Part shown: positions 46,593 through 60,417 of the stretch, one piece after another
How positions within the stretch are numbered: position 1 is the stretch's first letter
How the letters are laid out: every line of letters starts with the position of its first letter
NCBI GenBank assembly: GCA_016217735.1
Contig: JACRGQ010000067.1
Span: 1-64,000 of the forward strand
Direction: 5' to 3'
Length of the DNA stretch: 64,000 bases
From: Nitrospinota bacterium
GTDB lineage: Bacteria; Nitrospinota_A; UBA7883; JACRGQ01
The notes under the pieces: model-generated
The model's input: the letters and a program-made list of their open reading frames with translations, nothing else
Databases searched by the model: none
What the model was told of the DNA's origin: nothing
Program-made: the position numbers and the translations under genes

Positions 46593-46671
46593 AGCAAAAA
46601 TCCCCCCGGATTTATTTGCCCCGTGGCGAAGTATGAGATAATCTTTGCGGCAACCTGGAGTCTCAACATAT

Positions 46672-47916
46672 ATGAAGAATTTCACATGGCCGCTTGTGGC
46701 GGCATTGTTGATTTGCGCCGCGCCCGCCGCCGTGCGGGCGGAGGAGGAAGCGCCGTTCCCCTTTGAGATGGCGCCGGAAGGCAACATCCTTGACGAGCCG
46801 GAGAAAGCCGTCGCCCCGCCGCGCCTGGAAAGTCTCCTCAGTCTCGAAATGCGGGTGGCGCTCATCCGCGCCGCCTCGTCCGCCACTCTCGCCGGCGAGG
46901 GGAACCTGCTCATCACTTCCGCCGAGAGCGGCGCGCGCCTCAACACCGGCGATCTCCAAACTATTACCGTCCAGCGCAGCCCGCACGGCATCCGCATCAA
47001 CACGCTCGTTTTCCCCATCCGCTCCATCCGGGTGGAATCGCCGGACGGCATTATCGGCATCAACGGCAAGCGTTATCGCGGCTACATTGTTTTGTGGGAT
47101 AACGGCAAGGGAACCTTCGACGTGGTGAACCACGTCATGCTGGAGGATTACCTTCGCAGCGTGGTGGCGGCCGAGATGCCGAAATCGTGGCCGGTGGAAG
47201 CCCTGAAAGCGCAGGCGGTTGCCGCCCGCACCTACGCGCTTTTCCGGCGGCAGGAAATGAACGAAAACTACTTCGATCTGGAAACCACCGTGATGGATCA
47301 GGTATACGGCGGCGTGGCCAACGAAGACCCCCGCACCGACAAAGCGGTCAGCGGCACCGCCGGGATGATCCTGATGTACAAGAATCAGGTGGCCCGCACC
47401 TTCTTCCACGCCAACTGCGGCGACCGCACCGAGGATGGAGTCGAAGTCTTCCAAAAGGTGAGTGTGCCGTATCTCAAATCGGTGCCGTGCGAATACGGCA
47501 AAAAATCCCCCTATTACACATGGCAGATCGGCGTGCGGATGAACGAGATCGAGGCGGCCCTCGCCCGCGCCGGGCTTCACCGCGGCAAAATCGCATCGCT
47601 TGCCACGCAAAGCCGCACGAAGACCGGGCGCGTGAAAACGCTTGCCCTGCACAACGGACGCAACGTGACGATGGTGGACGCCGTCGCTTTCCGCCTGGCG
47701 CTCGGCCCGGCCCGCCTGAAAAGCACCCGGTTCACCATCCAAAAACAGGGCACCATGGTCACATTCAAGGGAATCGGTTACGGTCATGGCGTGGGTCTCT
47801 GCCAGTGGGGAGCCAAGGGGATGGCGGACGCCGGACGCCGCTTCGGCGATATTTTGGGCAAGTACTATCCCGGCGCAACCGTCGCCGTCAATGTTCTCGC
47901 TTCCGTGCCGGAGTGA
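46672..47916 (+). CDS. SpoIID/LytB-domain protein (exported)
   Basis: A 414-residue protein with a signal peptide (about residues 1-23). The SpoIID/LytB core contains YRGYIVLWDNGKGTFDVVNH, LEDYLRSVVAAEMPKSWPVE, ALKAQAVAARTYAL and the C-terminal GIGYGHGVGLCQWGAKGMA. SpoIID is a peptidoglycan lytic transglycosylase acting on denuded glycan; the catalytic Glu in AAEMPKSW is present. In a non-sporulating diderm it probably remodels septal or side-wall glycan. GGAG lies 11 bases before the ATG. Its stop is within the queA ribosome-binding region. Confidence 0.9.
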   Translation: MKNFTWPLVAALLICAAPAAVRAEEEAPFPFEMAPEGNILDEPEKAVAPPRLESLLSLEMRVALIRAASSATLAGEGNLLITSAESGARLNTGDLQTITVQRSPHGIRINTLVFPIRSIRVESPDGIIGINGKRYRGYIVLWDNGKGTFDVVNHVMLEDYLRSVVAAEMPKSWPVEALKAQAVAARTYALFRRQEMNENYFDLETTVMDQVYGGVANEDPRTDKAVSGTAGMILMYKNQVARTFFHANCGDRTEDGVEVFQKVSVPYLKSVPCEYGKKSPYYTWQIGVRMNEIEAALARAGLHRGKIASLATQSRTKTGRVKTLALHNGRNVTMVDAVAFRLALGPARLKSTRFTIQKQGTMVTFKGIGYGHGVGLCQWGAKGMADAGRRFGDILGKYYPGATVAVNVLASVPE

Positions 47917-47919
47917 GCC

Positions 47920-48939
47920 ATCAGCACGCGGCTGGCCGATTACGATTTTCCGCTGCCGCCGGAACTCATCGCCCGATACCCCGCCGATAAACGCGACCGG
48001 TCGCGCCTCATGCGGCTCGACCGCGCCACCGGCGCAATCTCGCATCACACCTTCGCCGATCTGCCGGAACTGCTCAATGGCGGCGATACCCTCGTGCTGA
48101 ACGAGACCCGCGTGATCCCCGCCCGCGTTTTCGGCACAATTCCCGCCGGAGCGGAAATCGAGATGCTGGTTGTCCGGTTCGACGCGGGCGAAGTCGTCGC
48201 CATGGTGCGCGGCCTCAAAAAACTCAAACCCGGAATGCGGATTGATTTTGGCAATGGGCTGAGCGGGGAATTTCTGCGGCGCGAAGGGGAGATGGGCGTT
48301 TTCCGGTTCGCGTTGCCGGAGGAGGCGGTCAAGGAATGGCTCCGCGTTCACGGCGCCATTCCGCTGCCGCCGTATATGGAGCGGGAAGAGGAACCGCTCG
48401 ACCGCGAACGGTATCAAACCGTTTTTGCGGCGAAGGACGGCTCCTGCGCCGCCCCCACCGCCGGACTCCATTTCACGCCGGAGCTTTTGGCGCGGTTGGC
48501 GGAAAAGAAGGTTTTGCGGGAAAAAATCACTTTACATGTGGGACCCGGCACGTTCAAGCCCATTACCGAAGAAGACATTACCCGCCACGCCATCGACCCC
48601 GAATACGCCGACGTGCCGCGCCCGCTGTTTGACCGCCTGCTGGATGCAAAGCGGCGCGGCGGGCGCGTGGTGGCGGTCGGCACCACCGTCACCCGTTCGC
48701 TGGAGGCGGCGGCGCGGCACGGCGGCGAATTCAGCGGCCCGACGGGGCTTTACATATCGCCCGGCTTCGAGTTCCGCGTGGTGGACGCGCTCATCACGAA
48801 CTTCCATCTGCCGAAATCGTCGCTGCTGGTGCTGGCCGCCGCCTTCGCGGGACGCGAACGGATTTTGGCCGCCTACGCCGCCGCGGTGCAAGAGCGCTAC
48901 CGCTTTTACTCCTACGGCGACGCGATGCTGATTATCTAG
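47920..48939 (+). CDS. queA: tRNA queuosine ribosyltransferase-isomerase, apparent AUC start
   Basis: QueA transfers the ribose of SAM to preQ1 in tRNA to form epoxyqueuosine. The 339-residue protein shows the family start TRLADYDFPLPPELIARYPA, then SRLMRLDRATG, RVIPARVFG, PLPPYMEREEEPLDRERYQT, AAPTAGLHFT, LHVGPGTFKPI and TNFHLPKSSLLVLAAAFAG. The conserved N-terminus has no ATG, GTG or TTG; it begins ATC AGC ACG 3 bases after the spoIID stop, with GGAG 6 bases upstream. The first ATG (48010) would remove the essential DYDFPLP segment. An AUC start, or a mutation or error in an ATG, is the best reading. Confidence 0.9.
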   Translation: MSTRLADYDFPLPPELIARYPADKRDRSRLMRLDRATGAISHHTFADLPELLNGGDTLVLNETRVIPARVFGTIPAGAEIEMLVVRFDAGEVVAMVRGLKKLKPGMRIDFGNGLSGEFLRREGEMGVFRFALPEEAVKEWLRVHGAIPLPPYMEREEEPLDRERYQTVFAAKDGSCAAPTAGLHFTPELLARLAEKKVLREKITLHVGPGTFKPITEEDITRHAIDPEYADVPRPLFDRLLDAKRRGGRVVAVGTTVTRSLEAAARHGGEFSGPTGLYISPGFEFRVVDALITNFHLPKSSLLVLAAAFAGRERILAAYAAAVQERYRFYSYGDAMLII

Positions 48940-53383: not shown

Positions 53384-54193
53384 ATGACCTACCCGTTATC
53401 GCTTCAGGGAAAAAACGCGCTCATCTTTGGCGTGGCAAACGACCGCAGCATCGCCTGGGGTATCGCGGAAGAGCTGCACCGCGCCGGGGCGAACCTTGCC
53501 TTCACCTACGCGGGTGAGATACTGGAAAAGCGCGTCCGCCCGCTGGCGGAGTCGGTCGGCGCCACGTTCGTCGAGCCGTGCGACGTTACGAGCGATGAGC
53601 AGATCGAAAAGGTCATGGCGGCCTTTAAGGAAAAAGTCGGCCGCCTCGACATTCTCATCCACGCCGTCGCTTTCGCCGACCGCGAGGACTTAAAGGATCA
53701 TTTTTACACCACCAGCCGCAAAGGGTTCGCCATGGCGATGGACATCTCGGTTTTCTCGCTGGTGGCCATTACCCGCGCGGCGCTGCCGCTGATGGAAGGG
53801 GGCGAAGCGAGCGTTTTGACCCTTTCCTATTACGGCGCGGAGAAGGTGGTGAAGAGGTACAACGTGATGGGGGTGGCGAAGGCGGCGCTGGAAGCGTCCG
53901 TGCGCTACCTCGCCAACGACCTCGGCCCCAAGGGGATACGCGTGAACGCCATATCGGCCGGGCCGATCAAAACGCTGGCCGCCAGCGGCATCGGCGATTT
54001 CCGCAGCATGCTCAAGCACCACGAAAAAACCGCGCCGCTCCACCGCAACGTTTCGCAGGAAGAGGTGGGGAAGGCGGCGCTGTATCTCTGCTCGCCGCTC
54101 GCGTCCGGCGTCACCGGCGAGATCATGTATGTGGATTGCGGCTACAACATCATGGCCAGCGTTCCCGCCGAAGAAGCGGCCAAGGCGGAGTAG
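53384..54193 (+). CDS. fabI: Enoyl-[acyl-carrier-protein] reductase (NADH)
   Basis: FabI catalyses the last step of each fatty-acid elongation cycle. The 269-residue SDR protein has the N-terminal cofactor segment [20 protein letters not shown], the catalytic Tyr-x6-Lys within [38 protein letters not shown] and [19 protein letters not shown] lies before the ATG. It is followed, 4 bases after its stop, by the mfnB-like gene. Confidence 0.96.
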
Positions 54194-54197
54194 CCAC

Positions 54198-54902
54198 ATC
54201 AAAACGCTCATCAGTGTCATCAACGCCGGGGAGGTGAAAGAGCTTCCCCGGATGCCCGATTTTCTCGATCTGAAAGACCCGCATGGCGGCTCGCTCGGCA
54301 TGCCGATGCTGGCCTCGATAGAGGCGGTGCGCGCCGCCGCGGGGGACGCCGTCACCCTTTCCGCCGCCATCGGCGACGCCGCGTATGAACCGGAATTCTA
54401 CGCGCAACGCGCGGTGGACGCCGCGCTGGCGGGGGCCGATATCGTGAAGGTGGGGCTGAAGGACGTTTCGGCGGAGCAGGCGCCGTGGTTTTTGTCGGCC
54501 ATCCGCCGCTCGCTTGACGCGCGCGCGCCGTATACCCGCATTGTCGCGGGTTTCTACGCCGACCTGATGGATGACGCCGCGCTCAAAAAATATCCCGCCG
54601 CCGCGCAAAGCGCCGGGGTGTGGGGCTGCCTTATCGATACCTACGACAAAAGCGGCAAACGGCTGGGGCACTATTGCGGGCCGGAGACGCTGGCCGGATT
54701 TACCGCCGACTGCCGCGCGCGCGGCCTGAAAAGCGCGTTGGCCGGGGGATTGATGGAAGGGGATCTGATCTGGCTGGACGAGGCGGAGCCCGACATCGTC
54801 GGCTTCCGCTCCGCCGTGGCCAAGGGGAAGCGCCACGAATCCGGCATCGACCCGAAAAAAGCAACCGGCATCTTTTTCGCCGTCGACCAGCTCAACCGCT
54901 AA
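54198..54902 (+). CDS. MfnB-like (DUF556) furan-phosphate synthase, apparent AUC start
   Basis: A 234-residue TIM-barrel protein homologous to MfnB, which makes (5-formylfuran-3-yl)methyl phosphate from two glyceraldehyde-3-phosphates in methanofuran synthesis. Key residues are in place: Lys in DFLDLKDPHGGSLG, Lys in GADIVKVGLKD, Asp and Lys in CLIDTYDKSGK, and the late SALAGGLMEGDL and DIVGFRSAVAKGKR. The family start K.L.SV is preceded by ATC, not ATG; GGAG lies 7 bases upstream and overlaps the fabI end. No other start codon fits. Other methanofuran genes are not in the window, so the product's use is unknown. Confidence 0.85.
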   Translation: MKTLISVINAGEVKELPRMPDFLDLKDPHGGSLGMPMLASIEAVRAAAGDAVTLSAAIGDAAYEPEFYAQRAVDAALAGADIVKVGLKDVSAEQAPWFLSAIRRSLDARAPYTRIVAGFYADLMDDAALKKYPAAAQSAGVWGCLIDTYDKSGKRLGHYCGPETLAGFTADCRARGLKSALAGGLMEGDLIWLDEAEPDIVGFRSAVAKGKRHESGIDPKKATGIFFAVDQLNR

Positions 54903-60006: not shown

Positions 60007-60393
60007 CTATTTAGCCAAAATATGTTTGGCGATTTTCGCGTCTTGCAGTTTGATGTGGTTCAGCAGCCAGTCTTTCAGGAACCACATCAGGTTCGCTTCA
60101 AGGCCCGGTTCCTTGGTCTGAAAACGCTTACTGTAGCCGAGCACTTCCGCCACCAACTCGGCGTGAAGCTTCCGGTGCCCATCCAGCCCCGGGTAGCCAT
60201 GCCGCTCCTGCAGACGCTCTTCGTCGGCGAAATGGGTGATGGTATAGTCGACGAGTCCCTGCAGCACCTTTTCGGTTTCGGCCGCGGTGCCGGTTTCCAT
60301 CGAGGCGTGCAATTCGTTTATCAGTTCCACCAGCCGCATATGCTGCCGGTCAACTTCCGAAATGCCTATTTCATAGTCCTCTTTCCAACTTAT
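60007..60393 (-). CDS. Bacteriohemerythrin, apparent AUA start
   Basis: A 128-residue non-haem di-iron oxygen-binding protein: ISWKEDYEIGISEVDRQHMR, then LVELINELHASM, HFADEERLQERHGYPGLDGH and NHIKLQDAKIAKH, which supply the usual His, Glu and Asp iron ligands. The first ATG (60339) would drop the WKEDY...DRQH segment including the first His ligand. The family N-terminus is preceded by ATA at 60393, with GGAGAGG 5 bases upstream and the MCP stop just before. No ATG, GTG or TTG fits. It is coupled to an MCP, which suggests O2 delivery or oxygen-related taxis. Confidence 0.88.
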   Translation of the reverse strand: MSWKEDYEIGISEVDRQHMRLVELINELHASMETGTAAETEKVLQGLVDYTITHFADEERLQERHGYPGLDGHRKLHAELVAEVLGYSKRFQTKEPGLEANLMWFLKDWLLNHIKLQDAKIAKHILAK

Positions 60394-60417
60394 GTAGGCC
60401 TCTCCGTCCGCCGTTAT

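Follow-up and report, generated by a model that had tools for sequence, protein, structure and literature searches.

Conserved AUC and AUU codons as probable starts of queA in a family of uncultured Nitrospinota

Introduction

Where does translation of queA begin in a Nitrospinota genome in which no ATG, GTG or TTG stands in frame between the stop codon of the upstream spoIID-like gene and the conserved N-terminus of QueA? The locus lies in a stretch of 64,000 nucleotides analyzed as a whole (hereafter "the window"), for which a sequence-only reading had proposed initiation at AUC, had seen the same pattern in two neighboring genes, and had considered regular use of AUH starts to be new. As a kind, such starts are already known: infC, the gene for IF3, has an AUU, AUC or AUA start that is disfavored by IF3 and is autoregulated, pcnB of E. 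coli starts with AUU, and further non-canonical starts are those of Staphylococcus aureus cvfC1 and ccpN and of Streptomyces sigR. What is new here are the genes, queA among them, and the Nitrospinota lineage.

Results

The queA start site in the window

Positions 47900-47950 read ...TCCGTGCC GGAG TGA GCC ATC AGC ACG CGG CTG GCC GAT TAC GAT TTT CCG, and the ATC at 47920-47922 is the sole in-frame start candidate ahead of the conserved QueA N-terminus. The features of this site are as follows.

46645..47916, + strand: spoIID-like gene upstream of queA (PF08486; ORF start taken mechanically)
47910..47913, + strand: Shine-Dalgarno (SD) GGAG of queA, 6 nt upstream of the ATC and directly abutting the spoIID stop
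47920..47922, + strand: predicted ATC (AUC) initiation codon of queA, the only candidate with a correctly spaced SD; the homologous codon is ATC or ATT in 9/10 family genomes (G005 less certain)
47920..48939, + strand: queA coding sequence, tRNA preQ1 S-adenosylmethionine ribosyltransferase-isomerase (PF02547, E 1e-120; 1vky, 1yy3, 1wdi)
48010..48012, + strand: first canonical in-frame queA codon, ATG; its use would cost queA 30 codons at the 5' end and with them the conserved N-terminus

The spoIID TGA (47914-47916) is in frame with queA, with 3 nt between it and the ATC. The PF02547 match spans profile positions 2-322 of 322 and begins at residue 5 after the ATC with no stop between, while solved QueA structures (1vky, 1yy3 and 1wdi) align from residue 3-6. 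Together, these two alignments indicate that the stretch between the ATC and ATG 48010 is part of the QueA protein, and they bear out the earlier claim that starting at the ATG would delete the N-terminal segment. The GTG at 47913, found in the window genome only, does not share the queA frame.

Conservation of the start and its surroundings

We then read the homologous start codon at the QueA loci of relatives, among which G000 is the window genome and G000-G003 form one genus. The start is ATC in all four genomes of this genus, and the ATC of the three others refutes a base-call error or private mutation. Elsewhere in the family, the codon is ATC in G004, ATT in G006, G007 and G008, and ATG in G009; in G005 it is probably ATC, an ATG 5 codons further in being the second possibility. 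The codon begins with AT in all 10 family genomes, and in G000-G003, G004 and G006-G008 the 15 codons preceding the QueA N-terminus include no canonical start. Outside the family, a canonical start was found within 15 codons at every one of ~95 queA loci from many phyla. Three further records (L102, L103 and L104) have queA starts matching those of G002, G008 and G004, respectively, and come from separate sampling projects, with Nitrospinota among the titles. Overall, the role of the AUC or AUU codon as the start of queA, as first proposed for the window, appears well supported by this comparison.

In the QueA tree the family is monophyletic (100/99), and G009, the genome with ATG, is nested with G006 (97/84) and G004 (99/97). 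This placement makes a reversion the simplest account of its ATG, with a single origin of the queA AUH start at the root of the family. The ATG of G009 also implies that a weak queA start is not essential.

The surroundings of the codon recur as well. The GGAG noted 6 bases before the ATC is confirmed in the window, and 9/10 family genomes, all but G004, have a GGAG 5-8 nt ahead of the queA start. The spoIID stop could be located in nine genomes; its offset from the queA start there is -6, -5 or +7, such that it begins 5-6 nt before that start or overlaps queA, as fits a translationally coupled pair. The stop itself is TGA, TAA or TAG, depending on the genome, and spoIID shares the frame of queA in the window's genus, G007 and G008, and is in a different frame in G004, G005 and G006. 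Since an ATH codon, a GGAG and an abutting stop recur in independent family genomes, this layout is more than chance. No conserved RNA structure was evident around the queA start, where folding energies varied widely, from -4 to -21 kcal/mol.

Initiation machinery

The sequence-only reading had pointed to IF3 residues that inspect the start codon as a possible site of change. Aligned to E. coli IF3, the IF3 of the lineage matches over both domains and displays no clear fidelity change and no obvious loss; variation at the positions of E. coli R99 and R129 is found among the IF3s of other bacteria too. The initiator tRNA is likewise ordinary, with a CAU anticodon and a GGG/CCC stem (GGGCTCATAACCC). 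A normal initiator tRNA and a two-domain IF3 alignment make a general relaxation of start selection unlikely.

Frequency of AUH starts

To estimate how common such starts are, we compared orthologs between 1.41 Mb of the window genome and 0.57 Mb of its sister G003, a partial-genome survey in which we looked for third-position coding conservation that extended 4 or more codons upstream of the first canonical start and was headed by an ATH codon and an SD. Of the 251 complete coding ortholog pairs compared, queA alone gave a clear AUH case. A scan of 1148 coding genes in the single genome gave two more candidates, a receiver-domain gene and cobJ, both upheld in relatives, and genome-wide there was no strong signal of enrichment of SD-preceded ATH codons before the first canonical start. 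Thus, as far as this partial genome survey reaches, AUH starts appear confined to a few genes, the rest of the genome using canonical starts, and the expected regular use of such codons did not hold up. Extrapolated to full genomes of the genus, the survey leads us to expect about 10-20 AUH genes.

Other genes of the window's genus and family

The two neighboring genes were an mfnB-like gene and a hemerythrin-like gene, located as follows.

54187..54193, + strand: GGAG followed by the TAG stop of the upstream enoyl-ACP-reductase-like gene, an arrangement as before queA
54198..54200, + strand: predicted mfnB-like ATC initiation codon, after queA the window's other conserved AUH start
54198..54902, + strand: mfnB-like gene, 4-HFC-P synthase family (PF04476)
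60007..60417, - strand: hemerythrin-like gene, with the start-homologous codon ATA at 60417-60415

For mfnB the proposed pattern was recovered, with ATC in G000, G001 and G003, ATT in G007 and ATA in G008; the start is ATG in G005, G010 and most outgroups of the class. An in-frame ATG at 54129 lies inside the upstream gene in the window genome, and in G003 a stop cuts that route off. For hemerythrin, the claim failed: the ATA is private to the window genome, the relatives having ATG (G003 and G001) or GTG/ATG (G002), and we therefore rejected it as a third conserved case.

The receiver-domain gene (L264:5788, G000:C63) has an AUH start in all nine family genomes that hold it (ATA in G000-G003; ATC in G007 and G008; ATT in G010, G006 and G004); six outgroups of the class have ATG. 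In the window's genus its ATA overlaps the TAG stop of an upstream aminotransferase, so that ATG would be disfavored there on this ground also; G007, with ATC, is without such an overlap. In most genomes, the mfnB and receiver-gene starts lie at, beside or just after an upstream stop. The infC gene itself starts with AUC in five family genomes and apparently with TTG in the window's genus (L052-L061), which apparently implies loss there of the usual codon of IF3 autoregulation.

Discussion

Proposed role of the weak start

The position of the AUH codon, its conservation, the layout around it and the normal initiator tRNA are direct observations. Building on these, we propose, with a probability of about 0.6, that the queA AUH codon is a gene-specific, conserved weak start, which throttles QueA, ties its synthesis to translation of spoIID, and is probably sensitive to IF3. 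The ordinary initiator tRNA, charged with fMet, would read the AUC or AUU, and the GGAG, abutting the spoIID stop or overlapping it, would place a ribosome at the queA start. With this arrangement, initiation would fall mostly to ribosomes that have just finished spoIID, coupling queA to SpoIID translation. IF3 would disfavor the codon because of its imperfect pairing with the CAU anticodon, and a low QueA output that is sensitive to initiation conditions would be expected to follow. Within the family, mfnB, the receiver-domain gene, cobJ and infC may use the same device. A more speculative extension, which we regard as doubtful, is that queA, mfnB and the receiver gene, together with infC, form a set through which IF3 level or initiation stringency co-regulates queuosine modification of tRNA and metabolism.

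Alternative explanations

Drift is the main rival to throttling. An SD of good quality and coupling to the upstream stop may suffice for initiation, in which case AUG was lost in an ancestor and AUC and AUU have drifted since, with no regulatory role. The conserved spoIID-queA layout, the return of G009 to ATG, and the mfnB and receiver-gene starts that likewise lie near upstream stops in most genomes would all fit this explanation, which we consider possible, if on the unlikely side. Against it, the other 250 surveyed ortholog pairs contain no clear AUH start, and three genes have kept ATH in several genera despite ATG being a single mutation away. At queA, normal selection for AUG is clearly absent or overridden. 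As for selection against ATG, with 27-51% G at fourfold sites of the family queA genes, the lack of a third-base G in ~15/17 gene-by-genus cases is no more than moderately improbable (a rough estimate of p 0.01, for cases that are not fully independent), and this scarcity is suggestive without being conclusive. If start selection had instead been relaxed lineage-wide through an altered IF3, initiator tRNA or ribosome, AUH starts would be ordinary, and the gain of AUH by several genes in the family, where class outgroups have ATG, could be taken in that sense. However, AUH starts are rare and recur in the same genes, the initiator tRNA is normal, and IF3 aligns well, its variation at R99 and R129 being found elsewhere, all of which makes such a relaxation very unlikely.

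It is also very unlikely that QueA is made by a route that bypasses the AUH codon. A SpoIID-QueA readthrough fusion could draw on the spoIID stop being in the queA frame in the window's genus, G007 and G008, but the differing stops and the out-of-frame spoIID of G004, G005 and G006 rule it out as a general route. A frameshift from GTG 47913 was rejected, that GTG being private to the window genome, as were a start at the internal ATG 48010, which would remove conserved QueA sequence, and one at CTG 47932, a codon missing from G005-G009 and 18 nt away from the GGAG. Finally, a sequencing or assembly error or a mutation private to the window genome was conceivable when, before comparison, the codon had been seen in a single MAG; eight further genomes, of which some stem from clearly separate projects, carry a codon of this class at the equivalent position, and the chance of such an error or mutation is negligible.

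Relation to known systems and significance

Like infC, queA combines a conserved AUH start with a good SD, and the family's own infC has AUC in five genomes; unlike IF3, QueA is not an initiation factor, which leaves no direct feedback loop. The likeness to pcnB would be that of a weak start limiting an RNA-processing or RNA-modification enzyme, in another gene and lineage. In S. aureus, the AUU start of cvfC1 and the AUA start of ccpN give ~10-30% of the output of AUG (PMC13009471). These are, as in queA, conserved non-canonical starts of ordinary genes, but they have a strong, extended SD, whereas queA has a plain GGAG abutting an upstream stop. In Streptomyces, IF3 represses sigR through a GUC start (PMC5472188). 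That start is likewise non-canonical, conserved in a genus-level group, and part of a translationally coupled pair; it differs in being GUC rather than AUH, and in spoIID-queA the weak start belongs to the downstream gene. Extra IF3 in E. coli reduces initiation at non-canonical codons and also re-initiation without an SD (PMC2268962).

With these cases, the short list of AUH starts gains examples that are conserved in evolution and come from an uncultured lineage, and they show that such starts can be detected by comparative genomics. Gene finders limited to ATG, GTG and TTG would cut short QueA, MfnB and other proteins of the lineage or misplace their starts. As QueA modifies the translation machinery, a queA start that is weak and IF3-sensitive would link tRNA modification to initiation stringency.

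Further candidates

The cobJ/cbiH gene (L068:13363-14151, - strand, G000:C26) has an ATT start behind AAGGAGG that overlaps the end of cbiG, and 7/7 family genomes, as well as two other families of the class, have ATT behind AAGGAG. This start sits within the cbiG reading frame, which continues to a TAG, and with an ATG at this place cbiG would acquire a TGA. We thus did not retain the cobJ AUU as a regulatory codon, since the overlap alone may explain it and probably forces it. In one genome of another family (L304, G018:C318), cobJ is 80% identical to that of the window's genus, compared with 60-68% for other outgroups, which would reflect transfer or a binning error.

The private change of the hemerythrin start from ATG to ATA perhaps marks another weak start or a decaying gene. 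Separately, upstream of the ATG for a CxxCH heme-motif protein, a run of 16 codons reaching back to a stop (L222:6237-6288) hardly differs between G000 and G003, the few changes being confined to third positions; this stretch is possibly a further non-canonical start or a leader element.
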